A stretch of DNA of 64,000 nucleotides from Bugula neritina (Eukaryota > Bryozoa > Gymnolaemata > Cheilostomatida > Bugulidae): positions 3,713,251 to 3,777,250 of the forward strand of contig OZ037773.1 in assembly GCA_964035545.1 (NCBI GenBank), read 5' to 3'. Of this stretch, positions 8,919 to 53,147 are shown in pieces. The notes beneath the pieces were generated by a model that was not told the DNA's origin, made no database searches, and worked only from the letters and a program-made list of their open reading frames with translations. The position numbers and the translations under genes were made by a program. Positions within the stretch are counted from its first letter, which is position 1. Each line of letters opens with the position of its first letter.

Positions 8919-11900
8919 TCAGCTGTGCTCAGTGTCTTCTGCTATTACCTCATCAATCTGCAAATAAATCACATGAAATGCTGATAATTGACTGATAGGC
9001 ATAAGAGTTGTGTGCTCTAGCAAATTTCAAAAGAGTAGCAAGAAAACTGTGACTAAACCTGGGTGCCCGGGTTTTCGTTAGTTTTCTATTTTTAGAAATC
9101 TCATATGTATTGTAATTTAGAAACAAGATAAAAGTTTAAGCAGTTTGAATAATAGCCTGGTTTAAGCTTTCTGATCAGCCTGTCGGCATCATACATGATA
9201 TGCTATTAGTGTGAATAGAACAAATTTAACTTTTTAGCCTGTCTGACAAATAAACTTGACATATGAAGTGATTCATGAAACGAAGCGCTAATGAAATACT
9301 AAACACAGTACGTCATTCATGAGAAGCTGTTTGTGGTGCAGAGAGCTGTACTAAAAGTTTCAATAGAAAATTATTCTTTTTATGTTTTCATTATGAGAAT
9401 TGCCAAATATACTTATCAATTTAGGTTTAAAAGGAAAGCTGCATTGTGACAAAGCATGTGTACTGTGACAGAACATGTGTACTGTGACAGAACATGTGTA
9501 CTGTGACAGAACATGTATACTGTGACAGAACATGTGTACTGTGACAGAACATGTGTACTGTGACAGAACATGTGTACTGTGACACAACATGTGTACTGTT
9601 ACAGAACATGTGTACTGTTACAGAACATGTATACTGTGACACAACATGTGTACTGTGACAGAGCATGTATACTGTGACACAGCACCAAACAAAAGCAGAG
9701 ACAAGATTTTTAGTTGCAGTGGATAAACAGAGCAACACTCACATCTCTTAGTTGAGATTCCAAAGAGTCGGGATACTCAGCATTGGAAGGGGCCACCACA
9801 CCTCCCGCATGCAGCGGCTGAGAGAGCTGGTCGCCATGGTCTAAAGTGAGACCGTCAGTCGACCATCTGAAAGGTGCATCGCAAGAGTTGCTGAAAGTTG
9901 CTTCTTCCTGAAGAGAAAGTATGTTATTCCTGTGAGTCGCGAGAGACTGTCGTATCGGGAAACTTGCAGATGTGTGTAAGGTGCTTGGGGCTCCGTTGAG
10001 CATGTTTGTTGTGACGTATTGCGGCTGAGAGAGATTGGTCAGACCCAGTTGGCAGGAAGTCGCTGCGTAGTCTGTGTGAGTTGGAGAGAACAACTCTGAA
10101 AAACCGTTATTGACATTTAAACCGTTAGATTCATTGTTTCCTAGATTGGGCAGCTCACCGCTGGTATCCGAGGTGGGGTATGACACCTGCTGAGCAAAGG
10201 ATGTTTGTGATGAGTGAGCCGATGATGACGTAGAACTGAGGCTAGATAAACTCGATCTAGAGGCTTTTGATCTGCGGGGAGTCGCTATAGGCCGTTTGGA
10301 CATCTCGGCCGCAAAGCACTGGCTTGGTGGTAAACTGTTGGACGAACCAGAAAATTTAAACAAACTTTCAGCACTTGAAGATGGGTTCGACGCCATAAAA
10401 GGCTGTCCAAATGCGTTGAATTTTATATTGATTGGCTGTGAGTCGGATGAGTTGTTTGTTGCCCCAGTGCTGTGGCTAAGTACATTACCAGTATGACTCA
10501 TGGGCTGTAGGTTAAAGGTATACTGCATAGCGTGACCATTGTTTGTATCTTGTGTAGCCTGACTTATATCTTGTGTAGCCTGACTTATATCTTGTGTAGC
10601 CTGACCTATTAGGGTGGCATGACCTAAACCTTGTGCAGTGTGACCTAGATCTTGGGTGGTGTGTCCTAAACCTTGTGCAGTGTGACCTAAATCTTGGGTA
10701 GCATGACCTAGATCTTGGGTGGCATGACCTAGATCTTGGGTGGCATGACCTAGATCTTGGGTGGCATGACCTAGATCTTGGGTGGCATGACCTAGATCTT
10801 GGGTGGTGTAGGCGTGGCTATTAGCTTGGGTGTGGTTAACTGGCTGCATGCTGTTGGTAATATCCATGTTTTGCGGGGTCATAGCATTGCTGACATCCAA
10901 TCCAGACTGTAAGGGAGACAGGCTGGCAGCATTCCAGATTTGGCTGAGGAGGTCATTGTCAGGGGGGAGAGCATGAGGTGAAACCTGCAGTTAAGAAATT
11001 GAATAACAATGAAACATTCAGTTGTACTCGTGAAATGATTAGAAACATCAACTAAAGTAGAGTCTGTGTAGGACAGTCGAACAGAACGCAAACACAACAA
11101 GTGGCAAAGCAGAACAATTATAGACACCTCTGAATGATTTGTCTCTTGAGAACTTGTGGGCATTGGGGACAGTCCAGAGGTATCTGTGACTGGACTCTCG
11201 TCTAAAACAATGATATAGTGATATGATGATACAGTGATATGATAATACAGTGATATGATGACATAGTGATATGATGATACAGTGATATGATGATATAGTG
11301 ATATGATGATACAGTGATATGATGGTACAGTGATATGATGATACAGTGATATGATAATACAGTGATATGATGATACAGTGATGTGATGATATAGTGATAT
11401 GATGATACAGTGATATAATGATACAGCGATATGATGATACAGTGATATGATAATACAGTGATATGATGATACAGTGATATGATGATACAGTGATATGATG
11501 ATACAGTGATATGATGATACAGTGATGTGATGATATAGTGATATGATGATACAGTGATATAATGATACAGTGATATGATGATACAGTGATATGATGATAC
11601 AGTGATATGATAATACAGTGATATGATGATACAGTGATATGATGATATGAAATAACTAATAAGACAGCTGAGTAAGTGATCAAAAACAGTGGTAATAGGA
11701 AACATGCTGTGTGACCATCAGTTATAAAAAAAATACTCTCTTTAGTGTGCATTTATACAAAAACCAATACAATAACAAAACAATATTATTAGGTATTGAA
11801 AAAAAAAACCGGTTACCAACTCACTAGAATATGGGTTGGTGGAGGGCGTGTCTTGACCACCCTCAGCTCCCTGAACAGCCTGAGAGCTGGCTCCATCCAT

Positions 11901-14900
11901 AGATGAGTTATAGGCGCCAGAGTCCTGTCAATACAAGTAAATCCTAAGTTAATAAACGTTAAGTTCGACTATTTGCTGTTAGGAGTTGTCCCGCTGCAGC
12001 AGCAGAGGCCTGCATGGAAAACCGAATCTCACTACTTTACCTTCACAGGTGGTAAATCTTTCACTAGAATGGACAGCCTATGTTGTTGTAAAGCAGACTT
12101 TTGGAAAGTTACTTGATGCTTACTTTATAACTATTCTTCACTTCTAACAACTGTTGCACTGTATAGTAATATATTTACATCATTACAATATTACTACCAC
12201 AGTGCCACAATTACTACTATCCTGTACCGATTAGGACATGGCGGTGAAAGGTGAGAATATTACTACTACTCTAATATTACTACTATATTACTACTATATA
12301 ATTACTTCGTTATTACTATATTATTACTATATTATTACTATATTATTACTATATTATTACTACTCTAATATTACAGCTATATAATTACCACTTATCATTA
12401 TTACTATATTATAACTACTATAATTATTATAATAACTACATTACTGTATTCATAGCAATACTGTATTATTAGCACAATATTACTGGATTATTAGCACAAT
12501 ATGATTGTATTAGTAGCACTATATTACTGTATTATTAGCACAATATTACTGTAGTAGTAAGCACTATATTACTGTATTAGTAAGCACTATATTACTGTAT
12601 TAGTAAGCACTATATTACTGTATTAGTAAGCATTATATTACTGTATTATTAGCACTATATTACTGTATTACAACTAGACAGAACATACCCTAGCCCGGCT
12701 GTCACTGTAATATATAGCACTGCCACTATCAGGTACCACTGAAGGAATATCTGCAGCTGAAACAGATACAAAAACTCATCGCCTGAACAATGACGATAGA
12801 ATTAGGGCTGCAGATAACTCGGTTGAGTTTAAACAACTTTTTTAATTCAAATTTTCAACAAAAGTGAAGTTCCAAAAAAGTAACGTCTTCAAACAACTTT
12901 AATAGAGCTAATTGCCAGGATATTGCTAAAGTTAGCTAAGTGTTTGATTTGTACCATAAACAGCTATTCCATAACCACCTATTACAGCATGCCTTGAGCT
13001 GGTCTCTGGATAAGCCAAAGAATAAATCTACCATGTATAAAATGGAATGGGCAGTTACACTAGCTTTTTATAAGGAATGTATCAGCATACAAACCAGATG
13101 TAGGCCAGGTTCCAGTTGTTAAAGTTCTGCAACTCTAGAGGGAGCGGCAGTAGTCTAGGGGTTAGAGCATTAACTTAGTATACATGAGTCATGGGTTCAA
13201 ACCCCAGTAAAGGTCATTGGCGATATTAGGAAAAACATCCAGTCACAATAGAGGGGTTTCAAACATCCCTCTAGAGGAATTTGCATTTTAAAGTTGTCTC
13301 CCCCTAAAGGTATTGGGGGCAGTCTCCATAATATATAGAAGGCCCATAAAATAAGTAGAAATGTAAGGTTTGAGTGAAGACTACTACTAGTATAAGTTTC
13401 ATTTTTTCTGAGATTAATATTTTGGCATAAGTACACATATGAGCAGTTTCAAAAACTTTTTAAAAAATTTTGTCAATGATAAATGGCACAAAAACAAAAC
13501 TTCAAAGCATATTTGTGGTTTTGGTTATTGAGCAAATCTGAAGCTGGCAGCTGTCATTATTATTTGCTTTGCTGACTGTAACCAGTCTGTTTAGAGCTGC
13601 TAACCTTTCAACTCTTAGAACAATAATAACATGCTCGTAGACTATATAGCTGCACTAGTGGGCTCTGTCTTACTGAACTCCAAATGCTCCAAATTATGGG
13701 TTGGAACACATGCCTGTAAGTTTATGAAGGCACTGGCTCATTTGTATTAACATGTTCACGTACTTACACACCTATACTATGAAAATAACTAAGCCACCCT
13801 ACTATCTAATATTTCTATATATCAAAAAAATTATTATAAATATAAAGATATGTATTAAAATAGATAGATTAAATTTGTAATTTCAAACAACATCTTATCT
13901 AAAAATGCTAAACACTGTATAACTATAAATATGTTTTAAAAGCATTTGTTTACATGGCATGCCTGCAAGTCAATGAAAATATTTAGAGAACAGTAAAAAG
14001 AAGCATATAAATTTCAGAATAGTTAATTTTTTTCTGAGATAAATATTTTGGAAATGTCCCACAATTCAACGTTTAAATTAAGTCTGTAAAGAAAATTTCA
14101 CAGTGTATTTTCAATAAATAATTATTCTTGCAAGCTGGTTTGCGTTTGTTCTGGCATGCCATTTTACCTCCAGTTAGGTGCAGAAATGGAGATTTTGACC
14201 AAAAAATTCCCCCCTGAATAGCATACTGTTAAAAGTTTTGGGCTTGTGTTAGATAGGCCCTACTAACCTCCATTTTACAGTGGTCTAGTTAACTAGGTCA
14301 AAGTTCATTGAGGTGGAATTGTTTTATTAACCTCGTGTGTTGATAAAATACTATTATTAGATTTAGAACTTCTCTAAACAACTTCACAGTCTGATTAAAT
14401 ATCTGCGATACTTGCCTAGTAGACGATCCAAACTTAAAAAATAATATACTAAATCTTTGTATTACATGTATGGATAAAAAATAATGCAACAAATTGGCTA
14501 AAGCATGTTCAAGTAATGTGAAAAACTCGAAATATAAATGAGTCAAACTAGAGCTAGTCAAGTGTGTAGTGTTTTTGGCCGATTTATATGTGCTGTTTAA
14601 TCAGCTTATTATGTAGTGATATAATCCTATATAATGTAATTTAAGTTAGACAGCTAAAGTTGGACAGTTCTCATCGTGCACTTTCTTGAACAAGCAGTTA
14701 TGTAATATAGAAAGACAGCTACTCAACAGAGAGCTTCAAGCAAACAAAATTCTTGCACCGAGGTTGATTGAATACAAAACAGCTGCTGTTATTCTTATAG
14801 CAGCATGCATTGTATAAGAGATAGCCTGATGGTTCACATAGTTTACATCAATGAACTCAATAATTATTAAGCTATTCCAGCTCAGTGGTTTACATACAGT

Positions 14901-17900
14901 GACATACCACTGAAAATTATTAGAAACCACAGAAAAGATATAAAGGAGAGAATGCTGGCACAAAGGAAGTATAGCAATGTGGTTAAATATATGGCTGAAA
15001 ACTGACTTAGAGATAAATAAGTACAAAATGTACATAATATAGCTAAATCAGCAAAGCCAAATGATTTGATATAAAAAGTATTATCTGGGAATTTAGTGAA
15101 ACTTTGTAGTATTATTTAAAATTCCACCTTTGAGCAAGACCCGTATGGAGTAAAGCCAATCTTAATTTCATTAGTGTCATAAGAATGCAGTCATTATGAC
15201 ATAGTTCGTTCTTTCTATACTTTACAGCTGGTACTAAATGTACATTCCAACTCTTTTTTGGAAACAAGCCAAGTTGCTTTGGCTGAAAAGTGCTTTTTTT
15301 GATGATTTTTTTTCTGCAATGCAGCAGTATATAATTTACAATGCTCCAAAAACATTTCTGTATTAGGAATGTTGGTATACCAACAGCTTGCAAGAATATT
15401 TATTTATTGAAAATACACTGTGAAATTTTTTTTACAGACTTAATGTAAACGTTGAATTGTGGGACATTTCCAAAATATTTATCTCAGAAAAAAGAAACTA
15501 TTCTGAAATTTATATGCTTCTTTTTACTGTTCTCTAAATATTTTTATTGACTTGCAGGCATGCCATGTAAACAAATGCTTTTAAAACATATTTATAGTTA
15601 TACAGTGTTTAGCATTTTTAGATAAGATGTTGTTTGAAATTACAAATTTAATCTATCTATTTTAATACATATCTTTATATTTATAATAATTTTTTTGATA
15701 TATAGAAATATTAGATAGTAGGGTGGCTTAGTTATTTTCATAGTATAGGTGTGTAAGTACGTGAACATGTTAATACAAATGAGCCAGTGCCTTCATAAAC
15801 TTACAGGCATGTGTTTCAACTCATAATTTGGAGCATTTGGAGTTTAGCAAGACAGAGCCCACTAGTGCAGCTATATAGTCTACGAGCATGTTATTATTGT
15901 TCTAAGAGTTGAAAGGTTAGCAACTCTAAACAGACTGGTTACAGTCAGCAAAGCAAATAATAATGACAGCTGCCAGCTTCAGATTTGCTCAATAACCAAA
16001 ACCACAAATATGCTTTGAAGTTTTGTTTTTGTGCCATTTATCATTGACAAAATTTTTTAAAAAGTTTTTGAAACTGCTCATATGTGTACTTATGCCAAAA
16101 TATTAATCTCAGAAAAAATGAAACTTATACCAGTAGTAGTCTTCACTCAAACCTTACATTTCTACTTATTTTATGGGCCTTCTATATATTATGGAGACTG
16201 CCCCCAATACCTTTAGGGGGAGACAACTTTAAAATACAAATTCCTCTAGAGGGATGTTTGAAACCCCTCTATTGCTTCTTTGCCCCAGCTGGATAAGTCC
16301 TTAGCCTGATTTAACAAAAAGCTCTTTCCATCAGGGATGGTGACTATAAACTTGCGTGAGTTTTTATATTCTAACTGAAGAGATCATTAGTATAGCACTT
16401 ACACAAAATACAAGAGTTTACCAAATCGCCACTCACCTGCAAGACGCTCGATTGCCGGCGTACTCTGCATACGTCGCTCCTTCCTCGACTGGCCTCTTCC
16501 TTCAACTGCAACACAACAGTTTCTATGTGGGAGTTGTTTCCTTAACTTATATATATTGCATGTTAACACAACTCCACAATTATACACCAGTTGGCTAGCA
16601 AACGAGATTATGAACTTGAATACCATCAGTTTTAAGTTGATAAGTCTAAATCATTTAATCCAAACCATCAATTTGAACAACCAACGGAACAAAAGTCGTG
16701 TGAATTAATCATAAACCTGAATTACTTGACCAGCAAGTATTTGGTTGACGTAAGATCAGCTTGAACTGTAAACCAGAACAACTGATGGCTAATTGAAAAA
16801 ACTTCCAGTGAAAGTTCATTATCTTCAACTCCGAAATTCATCCTCATTGAATAAACTTCGCTGTGCCAGGTTGACAAAAAATATCTTACAGTCGAGAACA
16901 AGTGGAGTTGCCTTACCAGGGTTATATGTAAACTTGAGTGTGCTGGACACCCCTCTTTCAGTAACCAGCTGCACATTCACAGTGCGCTGTTTTAGTAGCT
17001 GTTTGCCAGAGGGTGGCTTGTACTCGGGATACACTAGCTGAATGGCAGCACATTCGTGGATGTCCTTTTCCCTGTAACGACCTTCAGCTTCCCAACTGGT
17101 CGCCTCGTCATAGAAACGGATCTTCTTGATATCACCTGCATATAGGATACCATAGTGTCACAGTAGCATGTAAACCTTTATTTATTTCCTCACAGGTGAG
17201 GATGACACACCCGTAGGTGAGGATGACACGCCCACAGGTGATGATGACACACCCACAAGAGAGAATGACACACCCACAGGTGAGGGTGACACATTAGGCC
17301 AGTGACCAGGACAAATAGAAAAAAACTTCTGTAATTGAATAACCACAAGCTGTGTTGTAATTATAGAAAGCTCATTGTGTATTGGATCAAAGTACTATGT
17401 ATTTCTACAAACATGCAGTGCCGATCTCGTGTTTTTACAGCTCTTTAGGCTAGGGCCACACGGTGTGGACTCCCCATACATGCAGAAAATCTGTCTAGCC
17501 CAGAAATGGGCTGTTGTGTCTGGATTTTCGTGTGAATAACATGCTGAGCGGAGAGTACATACGGCTCGTTCGAGTTTAATCTAATTGGCTGGTTTCGATT
17601 AGCGAGCACACTTTTTGAATTTCAAGCTACGTTTTGATTTTTAGCGAATTTGATAAAAACATTCGTCAATAATTTGCATTTCCACCTTTATAATATCTAA
17701 ATTTGCATTGCTTACGATGTAGATTTTAAAACAAACCCTCGTAGGCGAGCAGTTAAGTTAAATGCCATCATTAGCTAATAAATTTCCGCACCCACTATCA
17801 ACGCATTGTGTGTGGCAGGTCATTCCCGGGAACGCAATTTTTACTAATTTGGACCTGCAGGTAGAAAATCATGTCTTTGGCCCTAGCATTAAGACCACCT

Positions 17901-20900
17901 CACAGCAATAACACAGATAAAGTTATTATAGCATTACATTGGAATTTTCATGTTTGAAAACATTGAATGACACCACAACCATAGGTTCATGCAAACCCCA
18001 GACCGCAATTAATCCTACCAGCATCCATCTGCAGCCATGAAAACTCAGTGTAGAAGAAAGAAGCAGTATTTGCCTAAGTTCTCTCTCTGGCACCATTAAA
18101 GTACAGGGTGCAGGATACAGGACCCTATCTCCTACTAGACACAAAGTAAATTCACTCACCTTTTCTAGTGACTCCATTTATAAGCATGAGCATTTGCTTG
18201 TTACCCGAAGCGGGGCCATGTGTTGGAGTCATCTTCACAATTGCGAGGCTAGCTTTGGCTACAAATATAAGGTTACCTCTACACACGCAAGACATGAGGA
18301 GATAACATTCATATTACTGTTACTGCTGTCACTACTGTCGCTACTACCACTGCCGCTACTACTACTACTACTACCACCACTGCTTTTGCTGATACTACTA
18401 TTACTACTACCACGGCTACTAAAACTGCTACTATTACCACCACTATCATTACAACTGCTACAATCACTGCTACTATTAGCACTACCACTATATCTGCTAC
18501 TATCACTATATCTAGTACTATCACTACTACTATTACTACTCTCACTATTAAGATAAACGCTGATACTCATGTTACATAAGACAAGAATGAAGCATTAAAT
18601 GATTAAATAATAAAACTGAAACTCACAGGTGGAGTTGTGGATGGGATCAGAACAAACTGGTTGAAGCAGTTGCCACCTGTTATTCTTTACGAATGCCAAC
18701 TGAAAGCATATCTGCACATAATTTCTGTCTATCTTGTTTAGAGGATTATCATCTGCGTCTGCAATGAGAGAATATGTTTGCAATAAGAGAATACGTCTGC
18801 AATGAGAGAATACGTCTGCAATAAGAGAATACATCTGTAATTAGAGAATACATCTGCAATGAGAGAATACGTCTGCAATGAAAGAATACATCTGCAATAA
18901 GAGAATACGTCTGCAATGAGAGAATACATCTGCAACAAGAGAATACGTCTGCAATGAGAGAATACATCTGCAATTAGAGAATACGTCTGCAATGAGAGAA
19001 TACATCTGCAATGAGAGAATATGTCTGCAATAAGAGAATACATCTGCAATGAGAGAATACATCTGCAACAAGAGAATACGTCTGCAATGAGAGAATACAT
19101 CTGCAATGAGAGAATACATCTGCAATATGAGAATACGTCTGCAATGAGAGAATACATCCGCAATGAGATAATATGCCTGCAATGAGAGAATACATCTGCA
19201 ATGAGATAATATGCCGGCAATAAGCAAATACTTGCATATACAATAAGAATGACGAAAACAGCATAGCTATAAACTATGGAAAAAATATAAAGTCACCCAA
19301 GGCATTTCTTTCAGTAGTTTACACACTAAAAATAAGCCACAAAATTCTAAAAATTCATTGAAATCGACCTTTTACATTGTATTGAGCAAAGCAGCTTTTG
19401 TTCAACATTGGTAAAAAGTTGGAGTTGTACCACTTTACCTACTGTAGAGCACACAACTCTACAAGGTCTTACACTAGTAGCCGCTCTGTATATTTATTAG
19501 ATAGCTTATGCCTACTTAATAAAGTTAGCTAGAGAAATGTTTATTAGAAATATATATACCTTGACAGATAGCAGCAAGACATGCTTTATAAAACTACAGG
19601 TTGGCTGATCCTTTGAATAAACATATTTTTAAAGTGTTTGTTTGTGTACATTGTAGAAGTTAATTAAAACCAAGTAACCCTCAAGTATTACTGTGACACT
19701 GATACCACACTAACAAGTAACCCTCAAGTATTACTCTGACACTGATACCACACTAACAACAAGTAACTCTCAAGTATTACTCTGACACTGATACCGCACT
19801 AACAAGTAACCCTCAAGTATTACTCTGACACTGATACCACACTAACAACAAGTAACTCTCAAGTATTACTCTGACACTGATACCACACTAACAAGTAACC
19901 CTCAAGTATTACTCTGACACTAATACCACACTAACAACAAGTAAAAATATCATGCATATATGTTGATAGCTAAGGAAACCCACTTCCATAAGGATCCACT
20001 TTCAACTTCTTGCGCTTGTCCAACTGGGGTTGCCAATCTCTGTTCTTAGCATTGTTCTTACTGGCCACCAGATAGACTTTGTCCAGCCTACGATAGAAGA
20101 GCATCTAACCAATCAGCACGGACAAGACAACCAAATGAATCAATAAAGTGAAGACACTAGTAGCAGGGGTGTAGCAGTAACTAGTAGCAGGGGTGTAGCA
20201 ATAACTAGTAGCAGGGGTGTAGCAGTAACTAGTAGCAGGGGTGTAAAAGTAACTAGTAGCAGGGGTGTAGAAGTAACTAGTAGCAGGGGTGTAGCAGTAA
20301 CTAGTAGCAGGGGTGTAGAAGTGACTATTAGCAGAGGTGTAGAAGTGACTAGTACCAGGGGTGTAGAGTTAGGCCAAGTTTTATCTGCCCCCCCTCCCCC
20401 GCGTGTCATTTTTAGGCGGTTATTAGTAGTGTATACATCATCAGTCCAATAAAAGCATTGCACTACTAGACTGCAGAGAAAATTCAACAATATCAGCTGC
20501 TCCAATGCCACTTCCCTTATCTCAACTACCATATATATACTACATACTGTATCTCAACTACCACATATATACTACATACTGTATCTCAACTACCACACAT
20601 ATACTACATACTGTATCTCAACTACCATATATATACTACATACTGTATCTCAACTACCACACATATACTACATACTGTATCTCAACTACCACATATATAC
20701 TACATACTGTATCTCAACTACCACACATATACTACATACTGTATCTCAACTACTACATATATACTACATACTGTATCTCAACTACCACACATATACTACA
20801 TACTGTATCTCAACTACCATATATATACTACATAGGCTACTGTATCTCAACTACCACATATATACTACATACTGTATCTCAACTACCACACATATACTAC

Positions 20901-23900
20901 ATACTGTATCTCAACTACCACACATATACTACATACTGTATCTCAACTACTACATATATACTACATACTGTATCTCAACTACCACACATATACTACATAC
21001 TGTATCTCAACTACCATATATATACTACATAGGCTACTGTATCTCAACTACCACATATATACTACATACTGTATCTCAACTACCACACATATACTACATA
21101 CTGTATCTCAACTACCATATATATACTACATACTGTATCTCAACTATCACATATATACTACATACTGTATCTCAACTACCACATATATACTACATACTGT
21201 ATCTCAACTACTACATATATACTACATACTGTATCTCAACTACCACATATATACTACATACTGTATCTCAACTACCACATATATACTACATACTGTATCT
21301 CAACTACCACACATATACTACATACTGTATCTCAACTACCACACATATACTACATACTGTATCTCAACTACCACATATATACTACTTACTGTATCTCAAC
21401 TACCACATATATACTACATACTGTATCTCAACTACTACATATATACTACATACTGTATCTCAACTACCACATATATACTACATACTGTATCTCAACTACC
21501 ACATATATACTACATACTGTATCTCAACTACCACACATATACTACATACTGTATCTCAACTACCATATATATACTACATACTGTATCTCAACTACCACAT
21601 ATATACTACATACTGTATCTCAACTACCACACATATACTACATACTGTATCTCAACTACCACACATATACTACATACTGTATCTCAACTACCATATATAT
21701 ACTACATACTGTATCTCAACTACCACATATATACTACATACTGTATCTCAACTACCACATATATACTACATACTGTATCTCAACTACCACACATATACTA
21801 CATACTGTATCTCAACTACCACACATATACTACATACTGTATCTCAACTACCACATATATACTACTTACTGTATCTCAACTACCACATATATACTACATA
21901 CTGTATCTCAACTACTACATATATACTACATACTGTATCTCAACTACTACATATATACTACATACTGTATCTCAACTACTACATATATACTACATACTGT
22001 ATCTCAACTACCACATATATACTACATACTGTATCTCAACTACCACATATATACTACATACTGTATCTCAACTACCACACATATACTACATACTGTATCT
22101 CAACTACCATATATATACTACATACTGTATCTCAACTACCACACATATACTACATACTGTATCTCAACTACCACATATATACTACATACTGTATCTCAAC
22201 TACCACATATATACTACATACTGTATCTCAACTACCACATATATACTACATACTGTATCTCAACTACTACATATATACTACATACTGTATCTCAACTACC
22301 ACATATATACTACATACTGTATCTCAACTACCACATATATACTACATACTGTATCTCAACTACCACATATATACTACATACTGTATCTCAACTACCACAC
22401 ATATACTACATACTGTATCTCAACTACCATACATATACTACATACTGTATCTCAACTACCACACATATACTACATACTGTATCTCAACTACCACATATAT
22501 ACTACATACTGTATCTCAACTACCACACATATACTACATACTGTATCTCAACTACCACATATATACTACATACTGTATCTCAACTACCACACATATACTA
22601 CATACTGTATCTCAACTACCACATATATACTACATACTGTATCTCAACTACCACATATACACCACACATCTGACAGACCGACACTCATGTAGGAAATGCA
22701 GCATTCTTACTGAATTATGTTATTCTCTGAAGTTATTTCCAAGTTCTTTTTAACAACAACTCCATTTTCTGCATTTTCACCCTCTAGTCTGTGAGGATGG
22801 GGCTTGGGGTTTTCATCACTGGACTCTGGAACTGAGACTAAAGAAGCCATGAGAGTTGCCTTTCCCTGGTAACCTATGACCTTGAAAAACAAATAGCTGA
22901 ACAGATTAAGAAAATGTTTAGAGATATTCAGTAACTTGACTTCTGATATTTTATACATGTTTATATATAATAACATTAATATAATATAATAAATTATAAA
23001 GGAATCAAAACATTTACTTTCATTATAACAAAATAAAACCCTTTCATCGGTCACATCCTTGTTTAAGTGATAGTCAAGGTTTGTCTCTATTAACTGAATG
23101 CCAGCTCTAATATTTATCACCTAAAAACAGTGTTTGTTTCCTGGAGATATTACTAACAATGTGACATCACATCACCAGGTGTTAGAGGATGGTGTATGTT
23201 TATGTTTGGTGTCTGCTTACTAAACAAACACAGCTGCCGGATTTCACCTCAATTGTAGAGGTTTCACTTTTTGTATATTTCAAACCAGTGCTGTTCGAAA
23301 TCATTTGTCTGGAGGTTAGAGGGTCAAAAGCAAACTTATGGAGTACAGAATAAGCAACAACAGCCGCTACACTAAGTTCCTGGTTTATCTTTTTTATTAC
23401 TGCCAGTGACCATTGCACATGGAGGCAGATATCAGCGTCAAGAGAAAGTAAAGTAAACATAATATCTGGTGCAGAACATCTATTTGTAGATACCTAACAA
23501 CGAGACTGTTGGACCATTGCATATAGCATTGGGTCAACTGTACTTTATATACCAGGAAGATATGTGGTGTTCTGACAATAATATAATATTCAGTTCAACT
23601 GTAACTGTATAATAAGTATCCTAATAAATGGAAGTATTTTAATTCTAATAAGATAAGAGTGAGGTTGTTCAGTGCAGAGGTGAATATAGTTACATGCGTT
23701 CAGTCAATATCTTCTTTACATTCTGGAGTAATGTGACACCCTGAGCTTTGTTGTTATCGATACAAGGAAATGTTGCCCTCTGCGTGTTTAAATATTATGA
23801 TCAGATATTCAAGAGTTCGGGTATGATCAGTTGTACATCATTATGTAAAATATCCCATAGGTAAAAGCATCATTTGGCAGTTGATTTGCCCATTAATTCA

Positions 23901-38184: not shown

Positions 38185-38240
38185 ATAGTAGTAGCAGTAG
38201 CAGCAGTAGTAGTAGTAGTAGCAGTAGTAGTAGTAGTAGC

Positions 38241-38272
<32 letters not shown>

Positions 38273-38482
38273 CAGCAGTAGTAGTAGTAGTGGCGGTAGT
38301 GGCGGCAGTGGCAGTAGTAGTGATAGGGGTGGTGGTAGTAGAGGTGCTAGTTGTAGTTTAGTCACTGCAGTAAGGGTATTTGTAGTAGTGTAGTCCCTAG
38401 GACACAGGTGCTTGGGGTAGTATAGTCACTAGGGCGCAGGTACTTGTAATTTCCTCTGTATTTGCAGATTATGGGCCAATAA
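29852..38482 (+). CDS. Divergent Rel/NF-kB-like protein (Rel gene 2), 13 exons
   Basis: Predicted nuclear RHD protein, 707 aa (2124 nt). Exons: 29852-29910, 30042-30129, 31055-31236, 31847-31888, 32727-32821, 33189-33326, 33836-33931, 34652-34894, 35468-35529, 36112-37080, 37386-37430, 37758-37847, 38468-38482. RHD-N spans residues 9-200 with the eroded loop KIRYLDKDG (21-29) where RFRYxCEG is expected. QVKVIAFCVTD is the following beta strand, and GRIKIAQCSKDLVRKCLEER matches the family LGIxxVxKKxVxExLxxR. The IPT domain (about 203-314) has FKIKKVVPCEISANGGEIVL and FGWEITKPLNKKNIHESSVI. RKRRRMKG in exon 9 is the NLS at the family position. The 323-residue C-terminal exon is Ser/Asn/Thr rich with a 16-residue repeat. 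There are no ankyrin repeats. Exon 4 needs the weak donor GTGTGC. Only part of the DNA-contact loop remains, so DNA binding is uncertain. Confidence 0.88.
31562..31583. repeat. (AC)n microsatellite
   Basis: Eleven AC units in intron 3 of Rel gene 2. Confidence 0.9.
31979..32205 (+). mobile_element. Complete tRNA-derived SINE
   Basis: Head GGGAGCAGCCGTGATCTAGG with A-box-like GATCTAGGGG and B box GGTTCGAGCCC, body AGCATCCAGTCATAATTGC, then TTTAACAAAAAAACTTTTCA and GTGACTATAAACTTACGTGA. This is the reference copy for the split or partial copies elsewhere in the window. Confidence 0.82.
32334..32458. repeat. 20-bp tandem repeat in Rel gene 2 intron
   Basis: About six copies of GTAGTCACTACTAAACGGTT with drift. 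Confidence 0.88.
32571..32604. repeat. C-run/G-run inverted pair
   Basis: Eleven C, a 14-base spacer containing TTAATGCTGG, then nine or more G. It can form a GC hairpin in an intron of Rel gene 2. Confidence 0.7.
34898..35225. repeat. CTAGTAA/CTAGTTG degenerate repeat
   Basis: Dense alternation of CTAGTTG and CTAGTAA words that are nearly self-complementary at CTAG. It begins right at the donor of the gene 2 IPT exon. Confidence 0.88.
35795..36014. mobile_element. MITE with TAATGGCA inverted ends in Rel gene 2 intron
   Basis: Left end GTCCAGTAGTAATGGCA and right end TGCCATTATTACCGGAC form imperfect terminal inverted repeats. A second inner pair, GAAGTAGGTAAAA-like, faces itself. The middle is G-rich and telomere-like (TTAGGTTTGGGGTTGAGGG). 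It has no coding capacity. Confidence 0.6.
36640..36860 (+). repeat. 48-bp coding repeat in Rel gene 2
   Basis: In-frame 16-residue units of the type TNHFTPGVNSYTNDVM, four to five copies, in the C-terminal exon. The 48-bp length preserves the frame. Confidence 0.88.
37945..38345. repeat. (AGT)n trinucleotide repeat, about 400 bp
   Basis: Nearly pure AGT/GGT/AGC triplets in the last intron of Rel gene 2, ending about 120 bases before the final 15-nt exon. Confidence 0.96.
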
Positions 38483-42627: not shown

Positions 42628-45600
42628 ATGTCTGAACCAAAGCCACCCTCAGGAGCAAAACCAGCATCTTATAACCGGTCACTAACCAAACCAGTTCAAG
42701 CGACAGGTGAAGGAGAGGGAAACTCCACACTTGAGAATCTGAGTCAGCTGAAGTCTTCTGTTGGGTAAAAAATCTGCTTAAATCTTTGAAAACATTTATC
42801 TTTTTGTTTTTTTTCAAGCTGGAGTTAATAATTTTTAATGGCCAAAAGCATTTATTCATCCACAAAAACTAAGAATTCAGTTTTTTGATGTTATACAGCA
42901 CTACATTTAGCCTTGTTTTTTTCTGACTATCAGCTGTTGAAAAAGCATTATCTATTTTAGTGACTGGTTTGTTTTGTTAGGTTCAAATCTCGTGAGCATG
43001 GTGGAGTGCACATTGGTACATTTAAGTGCGTGGTGAGTATGTACGCATATTTTCAGTACTTTGCTTTTTACAATGAGTACATGAGTACTATATAGAAGTA
43101 ACTACCTGTATATGCTCGCTTACTAATCAGTCTGCTGTTACAGGCCCGCAATGTGCCAGAGGAGTACCTCTCTTCTCAATGCTTGAAATGGCAAGTGGCT
43201 TTCTGTGATCTAAAAAAGTCAATTAGCGAGCATGACTTGTTTTCTGTAGAGAACTCTTGCCTCTTCAGTGTTTCGTTTGATCCTCAGACAAAGACGTAAG
43301 ATTTGTTTTAATAATGTATAACTAACTGGTTTTTCATGTAAATATTATTCATTGCATCTTAGCCCATACATAAACGCCTGGAGTTATTTTTTTAGATTAT
43401 GCATTAAATAGAAAGTGCAACTCTATCACGTTGAGTAAGTAAACTTTAGTTCCCATTTCCATCCCCTTTAGATTGTTTTATTGGTACTAACTATGTTTTA
43501 TGTTTAAATATTAATGTTTGGGTGGTAACACTTCTACTAGTCTTACTATTGTGTGGGCTCTTTTGGATATATCTGTTGTCTGAAAATATCTGGTGTTTCT
43601 ATCAGAATTGGAATGAGGTCTTCTTTCCTGGTAGATAATAGTCATAGATAGTAGAGCTGCGTGATATAGAGGAACTTTATTATCTAATAGTGCAAATAAA
43701 GTGCTAGCTTAATACAGTAATCTGGAAAAGGATCTTGCGTTTAACATTGCCCATGGATCATGTAGAAACATTATTCATTTAGTATAATAAAATATGACCA
43801 AGCATGTAAACAGCTATTGCTAATTAATAGCTTTGTCTAACTACCATATTAACAATAGATTATAAAACTGCAGCATGCTAATATTAGATGAGTATAATAT
43901 TGGATTGAGTAGAAGAATTTGTGTTAGTAAGTTGTCTTACCTATCCCACATCCTATCACTCAAACTCAACTCCTCTTCTGTTATTCAGTTGTGGCTGTTG
44001 CTAGTTATTGAGATTTGTGATATTTTTTTATTAAGTTATTTCATATTTTTTTATATTCATTTCTTTTCATTTTAATGTAAGAATTTGACTAAACTTTCCT
44101 GATATTGTATAAATGAATTAGAACTCACTCATCCAAGTTTATAGTCGCTATCCCTGTGAGAAAACTCATGATGTAATTTTTTTTTAAAATCAGGCTAAGG
44201 ACTTATTCAGATATGGCACAGGAACAATGATGACTGGATGCTCTTCCTAACATCTCCAATGGCCTTTACTGGGTTCAAACCCATGACTCCGCGTTTACTA
44301 AGCCAGCGCTCTAACTCCTAGACCACAGCTGCTCCTTATTTATTATTGAAATTAGAACTGATTCGGTCTATGCCAATGCCTGGGTCAGATTAAATATTGA
44401 TTCAACATTATTTTAAACATGCTTCTTTCGACATTGTACGAAGGCTGTTATTGCAGGTTGGAAGTGAAAGTGAAACTGGGTATGTGTGGCTCAACGGACC
44501 CTGAAAAGATAGAAGAGCGGAGGAGAAAGCACAAACTTCTTCATGGTAACTCTTAGCATTAAAGGTTTACTTTTAGTGTGAAGTATTTTCTTAACTTTTC
44601 AGGCAATCTTTTTTATGAGCTCTGGACTTGAAGATGTAAACATATTTTCACTTAAAATCCTTTCACTTAAGGATACAAACTATTTAATAGTTTTTCCAAT
44701 TTTACACCTCTACCCTCAGTATGTTGCACGCAACCCTTGTGTTGGCTATTTCTATTTGCTATTTAGTACTTTAGTGTCACACATCTTTAGGGTTCTTATC
44801 ATTATTAATATGTGCATAGTTTTCAGTTCAAGGATTGTTTACTTTGTTCACAAGTATTTCCAGTCTTACAAGTTTGGTTTCTTTCTATAAGGCTTTGGTG
44901 AAGTTGAAGAGCATTATGGGGTAGGAGATGGTCATGTCGTTGTGCCGTTTGTAAGGCTTATCAACATACACACCAAGAAGGACATCTGCCGTGTACTCTA
45001 CCTGCCACCTATTTATGACTCCAGTAAGTAGTCTTTTGCTTTTTTGTTTCCTCTAAGTTTCATCCCCTCGGCTTTAGAGAGAATCTAATGTTTCCGTCAG
45101 AAGACTCCTATTTCATCATAAGTCTCTGAAACTAGTCATTTGCAGTGTTTAACATTTTTACATTTCGGCAAGTTTAAGCCATAAATTCACCACTGTTGGG
45201 ACAAGTTTCAAGGTCACTCATGATATCGTGATGAACTATTAATATTATGCGCACCAATGGTATCGATAGCATTTGTATTCAATATGTTTTAAGGTGTTAT
45301 AATAAATATTATTCGGGGGAGGAAACTTGCATATATCTACGATCTTCAATATGTTGAAAAGTGTTGTAGTGTGTTTTACCTTTGTATATTTCCTGTAAGT
45401 ATGATATTTCGTGCTGCCGTTTATACCATAATTATAATATGCATGTTGACAGTTTGGAAGAATATTCATTATTTTTCATTAGTCTGTTGGTTGTTGCAGA
45501 TGTATATGTTACTCCTATTGTGAAGGGCTGTCAGGCTGAGGAAGAGAGCTCTACTCTAGTTTTTCATCTCAAGACGTCAGCCAAGACCAGTGAGTTGGGA

Positions 45601-48600
45601 AATCAATTCTTTCATTTCCATAAGTAGACGTAGATAAAAGCTGTTCAAATATAGACTGGGCACCTGTTTTTTCTTTACTCTCTGGAAGACAGGCTGTGTT
45701 TTAGCCACGCTGTGTTTTGTAGTTGAATGGGTTGTGCTGAGCAATGAGTTGAAAGAGTTGGAACGGATTAAGATTCCCTCAAACAAATTTTTGGATAAGA
45801 AAGTAGAGGTTAGCTATAATTCCGAGGCCCTTCGAGGTTGCACTGATGTCTATGCTTCTCTTATGACCGTGAATGAACTGAGGAGTGAACCAGCCACAAA
45901 ACTCTGGTTCAACGGCCAAAGACTTCAGAAGCCAGGTACTGCGATATCTGCCACATTCATCAATATTATTTATTTATTTATTGTTATTATTTGTGTTAAA
46001 TCAAACTGATTATAAGTATTATTTTTATTTATTTCTGAGTATGTTGAAAAACGTAATATACTGATTGTTTGTTACTAGACAATGCCGCTCCTGTGACACC
46101 GGCTGTCCCACAGCAGGTCTCTCACACAACTGTAAGTCTTCTACTTGTCATATTCAAGTGTTAACTTAATATATTTCAATTGTTAATCAACTGCTCTATA
46201 CAGCATATTGTTTGTTGGAACAAGTGGCTATGGTTGTAATATAAGTAGTTATGGTTGTAATATAAGTGACTGTGGTTGTAATATAGGTAGCTAAAGTTGT
46301 AATACAAATGGCTATGGTTGTAATATAAGTGACTGTGGTTGTAATATAAGTAGCTATAGTAGTAATATGAGTTGCTATGCACTAATGTATTTTTTCTCGT
46401 TTTCATAACTGTTGACATTTGTTTTGATGCTGAAAATTTAGTGTTGCTACAACTCTGCCCAATCATGAAGGGGTATTGTCCAATTACATGGGGGGATATG
46501 TCTAGTTAGTAGTTTGTATTTGGAACTGGGTTTGTTAAACGATCCTTGAGATCATCTGGTGTGTCTGTTCCAGGCTGTCAGCACGCACCCCGTTGAAGTA
46601 GATGAGGTGGAAGTAGATGTTGAAGAAGATGACCTTGAAGAAGGTGACCTTGAAGCAGATGGCACCAGAACAAATGTTATGGCTGTTGATTTGGAAGATG
46701 TTCAGGTTAGTTGTGACGTAGTTGACCAATGCTTCACTGTGTCAGTTATAGATGCTTTGTAGAGCATATGAAATACATTGAAGTTTTATGCAACTATTTA
46801 TCCTGTATACTATTTTTCACCTTGATATTAATAGGATTCATGTATTACTGGTGATGGTGTGGTTACACATGAAGTCCACCCAAACCAAGGTACAGCCTTC
46901 CAACTATACTATCCTATGTTATTCTTGTTTTATGATTATGGAAATAGTATTTCCATGTAGTATTGCCAGCCTTGAGTGGTAATCAAATAATACAATAAAA
47001 CCCCAGTTTACATGGTCACACAGCTTTCAAAGCTCTCTCTAAGTAACTGTGTGGGAGAATAGAAGTACCACTCTCATACTAAGGTTGTTTTATGGTTAAA
47101 CAAATATTTATATTTTCATCAAAGTTTGTTGAGAAATCTAGAATTTTATATACCTAGTAATGAGTGTTGAAATTTTCTTGTTGCTTTTTTCTGTCTACAC
47201 GTTGTGTATCGGTGTTTATGTTAAATTGTAGATGCTATAGCAAGTCAGGCAGACATTCTTAGAGATGCTATTACGGAAGCAAGCATTGCAGATGAGATTA
47301 AAAGAGTAAGTAAATCTGCTTGTCATTTGATAGATTTCACTTTTTTCATAGAGTTTTAATTTCTTTCAAGAATTTCAGTTCGTTGAATTAAATTATCTAC
47401 TTGTCAGCAGCGGTGGTTTAGTGGTTATAAAGCTGGCTTAGCAAAAACAAGGTCAAGGGTTCAAATCTTACATTGTGTGTATTTAATTGGTGTTGTACTT
47501 CATTTTTCATAATTATAAACTGGTGTATCAGAATTATGTGCATTTGTTAAAGTGTGCCTTATCTGAGGAACCGCACTGTGGAAATTCTTCCCTTGCTGAA
47601 GACTTCAAGCCACGTCTTTGTGTAAGTTATCCCAAGCTTAAATGCAAGTTATTGCATGTTCGTGTGTAAGTTTTCTTATATTCCCGAGTAAGATATTTAC
47701 GGCTACGTGCAGATAATATGCTTCTGATTAGCTGGAAGCTCTTTTGATTCCCAGGATGTTACTTTTGTTCTGTTTTTGTCTTCTTCAGGCTCTAAGCGCA
47801 AACCCAGTAGACGAAGATGATGGGAAGTTGAGTCTTTTTGGTTCAGCTAAAGAGGTTAGTTTTTGGAGTTATCTTCTTTGCAGCATGTATGTTTGTAAGG
47901 CAAGTATTTCAATGAGATGGAAGTGAATAATCTTAAATAGTTTTTTAACTTGCATAATTTTATTGCAGTGAAATTTACTAAGTCTACCTTTTATAAGGCA
48001 TATGCATTAGAATATGTATCATATTGAAGGGTAAATATGGACTATGAGTGCATTAAATAATGTACCTGATACACATTTGTCTTCAATCACCAAAGAGTAT
48101 TGTTTACATATGATTATGTCAGTTAGAATGGGTATATCTCATGCTCTCTAATAATCCATGAGAGTGCAGGAAATATCTCACAATTGTGATAAAACTCAAA
48201 CTGACCTTTATTTGGTCTAAGGATAATATCTAGCTCTTAATTTTGTGTTTCTATTGAAAGAATGAGATTATGCGTCTCCCATGGGTTGAGGAGACTTTTC
48301 AGGAAGTGATGTCATCGGATAGCTGTGAGAATTACGACATGATGAAAGGATTCCCAGATTTGGGTTTGTAGATACCAGCACTATCTAATACAGTGCAAGA
48401 GCTCAGTCTAGAATCCTGTTGCGTTAGCCTTAAAATCTAAAGTTTAACTCACAGGTTGAAAGTGGAACTACACATTTCTGTACTTATATTCCTTAAAACT
48501 ATGCTATTTAAGCCTTGTTATTGTGATTAGTGTTATTATTAAAGACGTAATATATAAATTAGGTTTCTCTGATATTCTTATACTATTCTAGATGATGATG

Positions 48601-51600
48601 CCAATACTCCCTATGCTGTCGTTGAGACATATGGTGAGGTGAGTGTTTCAATTACCATGATTGGTTTTGCATTCTGCTGTCATTGTCGTAATATTTGAGC
48701 TATTTCAAGTGAAGCATATTACTCATAGGAGTAGACTGTGTTACATCCTGAATTATCTAACTATAAAATAGCCCTGTTTCTGCTTTGAGTTTGGTTAGTA
48801 GTTTAGTTTGTTAGTGATGTACAAGATTCTCTGAATTACATGCGTGTTATAGACAAGTGCTTTGTCCTATGGTTTTGAACAAACCAATCTATTCTTATAA
48901 GCTATAAGCTAACAAATGAACTAAATAAGTTATAAGTTAATAAATCTACTAGATATGTTTATAAGGTAGGGTAGGGTGAGGCTAGTTGAACAAAAACTTG
49001 CATTTTTGAGCGCAAGTTTCAAAGAATGTTTTACCAATCGAAGAACAGCACTATGAAAGTCAGTCATATGGTGCTGTCTTTGTCTATTGAAACCAAATGG
49101 ATAAACATTTTATTAACTATTCTGTGGTGAAAGATGAATGTGTTATGTTTATCTGCTTTAGGTTGAAAGTGAGTATACGGTTGAAACAGAAGATAAAAGA
49201 AGAGCATACGATGGAGGGGAAGGTGATGGAGGCGTGCTCAGTGAAGTAAGATTTGCAATAATTATCCCTTTGAATGAGCTTTTTTTCTGCATTCAGTGTA
49301 TCCTGAAGTTTATAACCAGTAAAATATTGACGTTGGTGTACGTTATAGCTCCAAAGGTAAACTAGAGATGACAGGCTGACTATCTATGATGTGGTTATTT
49401 GCTTGACAATTTACTACAATTTTCAGTGAAGAACTTTTGTCTTAATTCAAAGCCGTTTTGAAAGTTTTATATCTCAAGATTGAAAAGAAACTGTAACAAG
49501 TCACATAAAGGGCTAATTCAGATTTTCTCCTATTTTCAGCACAATAAGGCCGTGTTGGATGGACCGGTTATGATGGAGCTGTTAGGGTCTATCCAACCTC
49601 CAGGTTGTAGCAGTCATGCACATCCAAGAAAAGATTTACAAATTCCAAAGAAACTCCTGATTGAGCCACAGAGTACGAGAAGTTATGAAATGACTTTCAA
49701 GTCTTCAACCACCGTACGACCGCCACAACGTGATTCGCCATCCAACTGTGTGACTGATATACTAGGACAAAACTGGGGATTGGATCAGTTATTTGGTTGT
49801 GATAATTCAGGAGTAAGTGTGCTTCAACTTACCCATATCTAGTTGAAATCCGTAACTTACTCATATCTGGTCACAATCAATAACTTACTACCTAATTTCT
49901 AATTAATATTTCTCTCACGAGTGTGTGTGTAAATTAGTCAGTATGACAATTTATTTTAAGGGATATATTTGTAGAAACAGAGGGTTTAAGGATCTTAATC
50001 TGGGTTTTCTAGCTTGTAATTGAAGGTAGACTTGTTGGGAAAGTTAAGTTGCGTTTATACCTCTGCTGAAAAAAGTACCGAGTTTAAGTTAATAATGCTT
50101 GTCCGGGTACCCCTTTATAGTCAAGCTGAAACTCGTTGAAATCATATTGATGCGGTTGCTCACTTTCTGAAATTGAAATTTGACTCGCATAATAGCTATT
50201 TGATGCCCTTTGTAAACGTCGTGAATTAGTGAAGCGGAAAGCATAAAAGCGATAATTGAGAAGGCGTAGGTTATATAATTATAACCGTATAAGTACGTTG
50301 TCTAATCGCCAAAGTAATAACTAAATAACGATGTTTACAAGGAGTTATTACTCCTATTCTAAAATTGGCCGATTAAGTTATCACAGTACAAAAATTTCAA
50401 CGAGTGGCTTTTACAATGCAATGCAACTCGGAGAAATTTCAACCCGGCCAAATTGAATTTTTGACCGAAAATCGTGAAGGTATAAACGCAACTTTAAGCT
50501 AACAGTTAAGTTCGTAGTAGAAGGACTTGTCTATTTGATTATAGTAGTGCTACTAGTAATAAGGCTTCTAGGCTTTGTAGTAACTGAAAAATTATTCCAG
50601 ATTCCCAATTTACATACTGTTAGGCTGGGACATTGTTGGGTTCACTATTAAATAAAACTTGAAATAACGGATTTATACAATTTGGAAGCACTTTTTTCAA
50701 CTTATACTGTTTTGACCAAGAAAACCGGTAGCAATTTGACTTTCATATCACGTGTTAAGGAACCATCTGAACATGTTTTATTTATTCACGATATTTATTT
50801 AGAGTGAATTAATTATTTTGCGTCAAAGTTACTTTTAGAAAATAAGTTAGCATGAAGGAGTACTTCACAAGATTCACTCATTTCACAGTCAGTTACAAGA
50901 AGTGATGTAATCAATAGTTGATATTTTGTCTGGTGAATTACAGGTGTGCAATGACAGTACAAGACATGACCCAGGCACTGGAGCTACCACTCAACCAAGT
51001 GGTGGAGCAACCACTGGTCCAGCTGGTGGAGCCAACACTGGTCCAGCTGGTGGATCCAACACTGGTCCAGCTGGTGGATCCAACATTGGCCCAGGATACA
51101 CCGTCAACCAAAACTCTGCAGCTAATGAGAGTTATAGGGATGAATCAATACGTCTTGCGTGTACAGAGATGGTTAGTTGTGACATAACTACTTAGTTATT
51201 AGTTGGATGCTCTTTTGTTTCATGGAATATTCTTTGTTGAAAAAAACTTCAAAAATTGGCTCCAAATTAAAGTTTGAGAAAAGAATTTAAAAGTGAAATA
51301 CTTCCAGTGGTTTCATCTCAGATAGATGCTTCCCAAACCCCACATAAAATACATATATTGTACCAAAATAAATAAATTGCCATGTGGGAAGCGTTTAAGT
51401 TGGAAACTTAGCCTTGCGCCTAACTGGGAAGCATCTATCTGCAATGGCACCCTTCTAGTAACTACTAATTATAGGTGAGTGGAGGTCGTAAACTGTTGCA
51501 CTTTGCTTTGTGTTTTTTTAGTCCCTTTCTTTCTTGTAGCATTTGTCCTATGTAATATATCAAGAAATTTATCTTTCTGCATTATTTTTATCATTCTATT

Positions 51601-53147
51601 TAAAATGCTTTTATAACGGATTGTTTTGTAGCCACTGAAGCCTGTTGGCAACCCACACCACCGTACCAGGATGCAGAATCATGATACTGCTGCTCCATCT
51701 TCTACTGTCACCAAGATAAAGGTAGCTTTTTGTTTTATTGTGCAGAAGAAGCCACAGGCAGTTGATTAACCTGGTGTTGCTAGGATCTACTTTTCTTTTG
51801 AACAAAATCTTTTTCATCTGGTGTGCCATTTAGAACAGTTAATTAAGTTGTTTAGACTGTTGAGTAAAGTGTCAGCTGTTTAGAATGCGGAATAAAGTGT
51901 CAGAGTGGGGACAACACCTACACACCACTCATATGCACTAGTATAAACACTGGCTATACTGCAATATGTCACATTATCATTTTTCCTCTGCAATGTTTTC
52001 TCTTTCTTCATATAATAGCGTCCAGCGCTTACTGATGGCTTACAGCATTGGAGAAAAACACAGACTAAAACAGCTAAACCTGTGGCTGACCCACCTTTCC
52101 GCTGTGCTCTTGAAAAAAGACAAAGTTCCAGCCCTGAGCAAAGTAGCAGTTCTCGTGGCTGTAAGGTAGAGTATATCTACTGTGCTTGTCATCTCTCTCA
52201 CAATATATACTTCATGTATACAGCAGTTGATGCTGGGACCTCTTTTATAGATGCTTGTCATAGTAATAGTTCTATAAAACTGGCTCATGGATACCAGTAC
52301 ATAGCTTTGGCTGTGTTGTCTTCGCGTTGCCTTGTGTTCAAGTAATTGTTACAGAGTGGTAGCTCTGTGTTACCAGCTGATTGTACAGAGCTGCTCTGTC
52401 AATGTTATGTCTGTCTGTCTGTATCAGGAAAGGAAGATGTCATGCACCGAACCCCCTAAACCTGTCCCTATTACTGTGGAGTTTGCCTTGTCTCCTAAAG
52501 CCACTGGCGGTGGTGATTTTCCGCCCACAGTTCTGGATGATATTAGCCCACCGACCTCTCCGGAGTTGTTTCCCCTATGTACTGCTCCTCATATACAGCT
52601 GATGCAGGTAACAATCAATATGTCCATATGCTATATACATATATACATGTCTGATGTTGGTCGGAGGTCAACAGGCTATGAAATAGATTGTTAGTAATTT
52701 TTCAACAGAATTTTTCCAGGTACTTCCTTTATAAGAAAGCAGTTTCATGAAGCAATCAGTTGAGCTTCTCTTTCTTTTACTAAAATTTAACCTGAGTGTA
52801 ATGGCAAAGTGATCACTTCCACAGCAAATTCAGTGAATTGTTCAAATATTACTCCATAATATAACGGCTTTGTTGTTATGTCATTGCTCTCTTCCGTTTT
52901 AGTAATTCCTGGTTCAAAATGGTTGCCAAGATGCTGCTGTTGCTAGGTTATGTGTGCTTTGGTTGCTAGGGTGCAGTTGCTAGGTTATGTATGTTTTAGT
53001 TGCTGGGGTGGTGCTGTTGCTAGGTTATGTATGCTTTGGTTGCTAGGTTGCTGCTGTTTCTAGCAAATATTATGTGATGCTTGTTTTCAGGGAGACAGAA
53101 GAATCGCGAAAAAGAGTCCAGCTAAAAGAAAATCCAAGAAAAAGTGA
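42628..53147 (+). CDS. Highly divergent Rel-homology protein (Rel gene 3), 21 exons
   Basis: Predicted 817-aa protein (2454 nt). Exons: 42628-42764, 42981-43032, 43144-43295, 44457-44545, 44892-45023, 45500-45589, 45723-45935, 46079-46131, 46574-46705, 46835-46889, 47232-47305, 47789-47854, 48261-48363, 48592-48638, 49162-49245, 49540-49812, 50944-51171, 51632-51721, 52019-52165, 52428-52607, 53091-53147. All junctions are GT-AG and in frame. Exons 1-7 (residues 1-288) match genes 1 and 2 in intron phases and lengths, and weakly in sequence: CLKWQVAFCDL for the RHD-N strand, VVVPFVRLINIHTKKDICRV and LPPIYDS for the hinge, and KVEVSYNSEALRGCTDVYAS for the end of the IPT domain. The RxRYxC loop is not recognisable. 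Exon 9 is strongly acidic (VEEDDLEEGDLEADG), exon 17 carries GPAGGSNT repeats, and the C-terminus is basic (AKKSPAKRKSKKK), a probable NLS at an unusual place. Function unknown; it may dimerise without binding kB DNA. Confidence 0.82.
44134..44335 (-). mobile_element. SINE, minus orientation, in Rel gene 3 intron
   Basis: The reverse complement gives GGAGCAGCTGTGGTCTAGGA, then B box GGTTTGAACCC and the AGCATCCAGTCATCATTG body, ending in GATAGCGACTATAAACTTGG. It is colinear with the complete copy at 31979-32205. Confidence 0.78.
46215..46375. repeat. 21-bp tandem repeat in Rel gene 3 intron
   Basis: About seven copies of TGGTTGTAATATAAGTAGCTA with drift. Confidence 0.85.
47405..47475 (+). mobile_element. 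tRNA-like SINE head
   Basis: AGCAGCGGTGGTTTAGTGG with B box GGTTCAAATC. The SINE body is not evident, so it could be a separate tRNA relic. Confidence 0.4.
50985..51090 (+). repeat. 24-bp coding repeat in Rel gene 3
   Basis: Four in-frame units encoding GPAGGxNT in exon 17. The 24-bp length keeps the frame. Confidence 0.88.
52915..53065. repeat. About 40-bp degenerate repeat in last intron of Rel gene 3
   Basis: Copies of TTGCTAGGTTATGTATGCTT with GGTTGCTAGGGTGCTGCTG between them. Confidence 0.75.

Follow-up and report, generated by a model that had tools for sequence, protein, structure and literature searches.

A chromosomal trio of Rel-family genes, one of them cryptic, in the bryozoan Bugula neritina

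A window of 64,000 nucleotides (nt) on chromosome 9 of the bryozoan Bugula neritina (C9:3713251-3777250; contig OZ037773.1 of assembly GCA_964035545.1), the whole stretch of DNA analysed here and the frame of the positions given below, carries three neighbouring genes, gene 1 (8919-25535, minus strand), gene 2 (29852-38482, plus strand) and gene 3 (42628-53147, plus strand), with the same order and phase of introns over their first seven introns. We concluded that these are three Rel-family genes, which probably arose by local duplication in the bryozoan lineage, with an ancestral intron layout kept and graded divergence of the proteins. Descent from Rel is near certain for gene 1 and for gene 2, a divergent Rel protein, and for the cryptic protein of gene 3 the case is strong but indirect. 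The head-to-head and tandem arrangement with fast-evolving members, which an earlier sequence-only reading of the window had pointed out, is real.

The three genes were recovered where that reading had placed them. Spliced by hand and checked by script, the models comprise 13, 12 and 21 coding exons encoding 840, 681 and 817 amino acids (aa) for genes 1, 2 and 3, respectively, with GT-AG introns throughout and frames open to the stop codon. In every gene the introns of the Rel homology domain (RHD), the first seven, show phases 2, 0, 2, 1, 1, 1, 1, these being the phases in which exons 1 to 7 end, and the pattern reported earlier is thereby borne out. Exons 2 to 7 measure 73/88/52, 170/182/152, 104/95/89, 132/138/132, 99/96/90 and 219/207/213 nt in genes 1/2/3. 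The earlier lengths hold for genes 1 and 3 and for most of gene 2; for the latter, exon 4 had been given as 42+95 nt, with an extra intron, and exon 7 as 243 nt. Both points were corrected with P0003, a protein from a B. neritina draft genome that is 81% identical to gene 2 across 83% of its length. The 42-nt exon (31847-31888) was rejected, P0003 reading straight across it (NISFGKIKIAQC), and exon 4 of gene 2 therefore has 95 nt and the gene no extra intron, although a minor transcript with the 42-nt exon is possible. The 243-nt form of exon 7 was rejected as well, since P0003 aligns without its first 36 nt, and the corrected join raised the RHD_dimer score from 18.4 to 25.1 bits.

Domain and profile comparisons identify genes 1 and 2 as Rel. 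In Pfam, the DNA-binding half of gene 1 matched RHD_DNA_bind (PF00554) with 80.3 bits against a cut-off of 27, and its dimerisation half matched RHD_dimer (PF16179) with 48.5 bits against a cut-off of 28.3. Its PDB matches at E<=0.001, 51 distinct sequences, were exclusively Rel/NF-kB (one a fusion), the best being p65 (3.1e-20), and NFAT was not found as its best match. The dimerisation half of gene 2 reached 25.1 bits in PF16179 (E 1.8e-5), below the cut-off, and its DNA-binding half had no PF00554 match in Pfam; hhalign, by contrast, covered both halves (columns 9-306, 97.4%), with 96.4-97.4% against five or six canonical RHDs and a best E of 1.1e-11 over 273 columns. The best PDB match of gene 2 had an E of 0.037. 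Identity to the canonical Rel of the same genome is 30% for gene 1 and 23% for gene 2. Alignment to the two Pfam models, a check put forward in the sequence-only reading, accordingly returned both domains over cut-off for gene 1, a sub-threshold RHD_dimer alone for gene 2 and neither domain for gene 3.

For gene 3 the link to Rel is carried by intron order, phases, exon lengths and a weak exon-anchored similarity to gene 2. By chance, its phase pattern would be expected with a probability of 1.6e-4 under generic phase frequencies and 1.2e-3 under the most favourable ones. The corresponding probability for its six exon lengths, with the canonical Rel or either of genes 1 and 2 as the reference, ranged from 6e-5 to 3.9e-3 by reference and length model, and the lengths fitted more closely than 99.6-99.99% of random sets. 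In exon-anchored comparisons with four references (1000 shuffles, p-values uncorrected), gene 3 resembled gene 2 (z 3.1, p 0.004) and the four references summed (p 0.015), with p 0.09-0.35 for NF-kB, Rel and gene 1 taken singly. The signal was carried by exon 2 (p 0.022) and exon 5 (p 0.006), and was weak in exons 3 and 4 (p 0.155 and 0.124). In a control with real segments, drawn from five unrelated stretches, the similarity to gene 2 (z 4.2) was reached by none of 3000 draws, and that to NF-kB had p 0.027. In addition, exon 5 of gene 3 ends in PPIYDS where c-Rel has NPIYDN. The model is further accompanied by P0002, another B. neritina draft-genome protein, which is 70% identical to gene 3 across 34% of it and 86/90/76% identical over exons 5/6/7; P0002 starts at exon 5, leaving exons 1-4 without a comparator. 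A match of P0002 to Pfam PF15633 (E 0.06) was dismissed as noise. Considering these results together, we regard it as very likely that gene 3 descends from Rel.

What the common layout means became clear from the other relatives in the genome. Searches of 215,847,546 bases in 295 contigs with the two Pfam RHD models gave four exon matches each and hit the canonical Rel, an NF-kB gene, a gene at 3.55 Mb on C1 that resembles NFAT5 (its best match, E 5.5e-11) and gene 1, in which PF16179 matched exon 7. The canonical Rel, of the Dorsal/c-Rel type (RHD part C9:4685094-4690877), lies on chromosome 9 like the trio and shares with it the seven RHD phases 2, 0, 2, 1, 1, 1, 1 and near-equal exon lengths (88/155/92/147/99/231 nt), but it stands 0.92 Mb outside the cluster, has the full recognition loop RFRYECEG and scores 192 bits for RHD_DNA_bind, compared with 80 for gene 1, genes 2 and 3 having no match. 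In the NF-kB gene (RHD part C1:16852700-16856621), whose dimer domain scores 103 bits, the first intron is absent, the other six agree in phase and order and one extra is present; no ankyrin tail was seen in the 9 kb downstream with a crude motif. In the free alignment, Rel and genes 1 and 2 had their introns within five columns of one another, and the shared introns of NF-kB lay at most three columns from those of Rel, with one exception 10 columns off. The phase pattern is the ancestral, general Rel pattern. Because these phases recur in the canonical Rel at a distance of 0.92 Mb, the pattern marks Rel descent and not local duplication; the earlier claim that gene structure proves common descent consequently stands for descent from Rel, indirectly in gene 3, and does not by itself extend to local duplication. 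The phases also speak against a retrocopy.

Local duplication is suggested instead by the clustering. Genome searches with gene 2 and with gene 3 each found the query itself only (8 matches each) among the best candidates scored, from which decayed copies could escape, and a search with gene 1 found itself (8 matches) and, weakly, the canonical Rel (2 matches). A local expansion behind the trio is plausible, because no further copies were found and gene 3 resembles gene 2 most. The draft-genome proteins differ from the genes described here, P0003 by 13% from gene 2 in the RHD and P0002 by 10-24% from exons 5-7 of gene 3, and such differences under one species name would fit either cryptic species or very rapid change.

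The residues expected to contact DNA differ along the trio. Four residues of p65, R33, R35, Y36 and E39, which we take to be those of the base-reading loop, are all identical in gene 1 by alignment. Gene 2 keeps two of the four (R35 and Y36) and has K for R33 and D for E39; gene 3 is gapped at three of these positions and has an E at the other, but for this gene the alignment is not valid. At eight further DNA-contact positions, five residues are kept in the canonical Rel and one each in genes 1 and 2. A basic stretch follows the RHD in gene 1 (RKERR) and gene 2 (RKRRRMK), and none is present there in gene 3. From the sequences, altered or lost DNA binding may be inferred across the trio.

Genes 1 and 2 diverge from a 4.3-kb gap that contains a perfect kB palindrome, GGGAATTCCC (28003-28012), the sole copy in the window, located between the two starts 2468 bases upstream of the ATG of gene 1 and 1840 bases upstream of that of gene 2. 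Its flank is single-copy, and the chance of finding one such site in the gap at the genome density is about 0.6%. The kB site is regarded as a lead. Genome-wide, 302 copies were counted against 12 of a reversed control; this 25-fold excess could be explained by a repeat family or by real kB usage.

On this basis we have proposed a model for the origin of the cluster. A Rel-type gene would have been duplicated locally in the bryozoan lineage to give the trio, whose proteins form a divergence series from gene 1 through gene 2 to gene 3; the order of the duplications themselves can be surmised at most. Gene 1, which retains both halves of the RHD as well as the base-reading loop, is probably a Rel transcription activator. 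Gene 2, in which the fold and a nuclear-signal-like stretch appear to be kept and the contacts changed, probably recognises an altered site or acts mainly as a partner. In gene 3 the RHD sequence is mostly unrecognisable and the loop apparently gone, and the retained protein probably no longer reads kB sites. Given the perfect palindrome in the gap between them, Rel proteins may control the divergent pair of genes 1 and 2, which would amount to feedback. An immune role of the cluster is plausible from family membership.

Several observations weigh against this reading, and most of them concern gene 3. As the sequence-only reading had anticipated, this gene is hard to call Rel by sequence: it matched no Pfam family and no PDB chain at E<=10, and hhalign against canonical RHDs and gene 2 gave no signal (probability 0.07-0.21%), with a score of 12.0 compared with 17.3-21.9 for the ten best of 60 shuffles. 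Exons 6 and 7 scored like shuffles (p 0.72 and 0.58), and in the real-segment control the similarity to the canonical Rel (p 0.07) and to gene 1 (p 0.21) was not significant. The free eight-way alignment put only one of the seven gene 3 introns in a column where Rel has one, since alignment of this kind breaks down for gene 3; neither it nor a plain three-protein alignment was usable for gene 3. Structure predictions of P0002 and P0003 were of low confidence across the RHD: P0002, a partial protein standing in for gene 3 in the test for two immunoglobulin-like RHD domains, had a mean predicted local distance difference test (pLDDT) score of 27.9, and P0003 remained below 50 through the RHD, with high values confined to its repeat tail, which we took for a repeat artefact. 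If genes 1 and 2 were Rel and gene 3 an unrelated neighbour with a matching layout, the missing Pfam, PDB and profile matches and the random-like dimer-domain exon would be accounted for. However, seven ordered phases and six exon lengths would then have to coincide, next to gene 2, in a gene with exon-anchored similarity to gene 2 and with PPIYDS at the place of NPIYDN, and we consider such a coincidence improbable. Even less credence is given to gene 3 as a decaying pseudogene. Its recognisable RHD sequence has been lost and its exon 2 is shortened, as decay would have it, but 21 exons joined across GT-AG introns into a single open frame and a conserved draft-genome protein, 76-90% identical over exons 5-7, make decay a very remote explanation.

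Other points bear on the age of the cluster and on its function. No counterpart of gene 1 was found in the protein database, its sole match there, P0004, being dismissed as noise (10% coverage, in a repeat stretch). A tree of seven rows with gene 2 and P0003 left gene 1 and Rel unresolved, and gene 1 joined Rel (support 90/97) in a tree of five rows, a result that needs gene 2 to be omitted along with P0003; both trees omit Gambif1 and gene 3, and long branches weaken both. These branches, and the strong divergence of genes 1 and 2 from the canonical Rel, would suit an old Rel cluster from early lophotrochozoan or bryozoan history that was lost elsewhere, in place of a recent local expansion. 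On the other side stands, as a single comparator, the transcriptome of the nemertean Lineus ruber, in which one gene of Dorsal-like and one of Relish-like type are reported (PMC9835746). We hold an old cluster to be possible, though the less expected history; one genome is insufficient to settle its age. As to function, most of the other DNA contacts of gene 1 are changed, so that this protein need not bind DNA in the usual way. The palindrome was absent from 26 loci examined, including 20 kb each at the Rel and NF-kB genes; the looser motif GGGRNWYYCC had four matches in the window, three of them the same palindrome, and 6 of 100 shuffles reached four; and since the site was spotted while reading the sequence, its rarity is partly post hoc. 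It is a doubtful extension of the model, which we put forward only speculatively, that gene 3 is a non-DNA-binding partner or inhibitor of its Rel neighbours and that the three genes make up a feedback module complete in itself, with the kB palindrome in the divergent promoter of genes 1 and 2 as its driver. The preferred reading remains that of three Rel-family genes, probably duplicated locally.

In the spliced model of gene 1, exon 1 (25402-25535, 134 nt) is followed by exon 2 (25214-25286), which encodes the recognition loop RYRYSSE, and by exons 3 (22711-22880), 4 (19984-20087), 5 (18627-18758) and 6 (18160-18258). Exon 7 (16917-17135) encodes the dimerisation domain and exon 8 (16437-16505) the basic stretch RKERR, and the tail, Gln/Ser/Thr-rich by eye, is made up of exons 9-13 (8919-12756: 12756-12689, 11924-11825, 11201-11128, 10984-9743 and 8957-8919), all on the minus strand. 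By eye, within 25501-25580 on this strand, a short upstream open frame from 25554 overlaps the start codon; what looks like a splice acceptor, ending at 25574, lies ahead of that frame and suggests an upstream untranslated exon. One intron of gene 1 contains a 787-nt inverted repeat (arms 13246-14032 and 15488-16274, 99% complementary, 1455 nt apart) that looks like a recent foldback element, and intron 3 contains a 32-bp tandem array of 67 copies with 95% matches (20518-22666); several more arrays occur in other introns.

Gene 2 begins with exon 1 (29852-29910, 59 nt), and its exon 2 (30042-30129) encodes the altered recognition loop KIRYLDKDG. Exons 3 (31055-31236), 4 (32727-32821, supported by P0003), 5 (33189-33326) and 6 (33836-33931) lead to exon 7 (34688-34894), with the corrected acceptor and the dimerisation domain, and to exon 8 (35468-35529), whose nuclear-signal-like DRKRRRMK is conserved in P0003. 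The tail exons 9-12 (36112-38482: 36112-37080, 37386-37430, 37758-37847 and 38468-38482) hold a 48-bp repeat of 16 residues in 4.4 copies (36652-36863). By eye, the tail of P0003 is clearly richer in copies of this repeat, and tail length thus varies among B. neritina sources.

The RHD part of gene 3 comprises exon 1 (42628-42764, 137 nt), exon 2 (42981-43032), shortened at the place of the recognition loop, exon 3 (43144-43295), exon 4 (44457-44545; EKIEERRRKHKLL), exon 5 (44892-45023), with the terminal PPIYDS, exon 6 (45500-45589) and exon 7 (45723-45935). Exon 8 (46079-46131) is without a basic nuclear-signal-like stretch. The tail exons 9-21 (46574-53147) are acidic at first, and the protein ends in a basic tail, AKKSPAKRKSKKK. 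Just past gene 3, a 986-aa open frame (55355-58315, minus strand) resembles by eye an endonuclease plus reverse transcriptase of the long interspersed nuclear element (LINE) type.

Neighbouring, physically linked Rel paralogues are known from Drosophila, where dorsal and Dif both have a readable RHD. In contrast to that pair, the Bugula trio has one member beyond sequence detection and two members head to head. The cluster also provides a concrete test case for a Rel protein losing DNA recognition, and it implies that counts of immune regulators by domain searches can miss members. If our reading is true, exon structure can recover a relative of a transcription factor once its sequence signal has vanished. 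In a limited literature search, none of the titles listed dealt with bryozoan Rel genes. A published transcriptome survey of B. neritina found no Toll-like receptors (PMC8609888). In the present genome we saw nine TIR-domain exon matches on C2, C3 and C7, some with internal stops, and TIR domains occur in other proteins too. In Acanthoeca spectabilis, three lineage-specific NF-kB genes, NF-kB1-3, were reported to bind DNA unequally (PMC8677719); that set is choanoflagellate, and the available portion of its description gives no cluster or intron evidence. Besides counterparts of the Dorsal-like and Relish-like genes described in another spiralian, Lineus ruber (PMC9835746), the Bugula genome has a linked trio of fast-evolving Rel relatives, one of which escapes domain searches. 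The Rel-family cluster, with its cryptic third gene, is real and unusual and belongs to a known kind.

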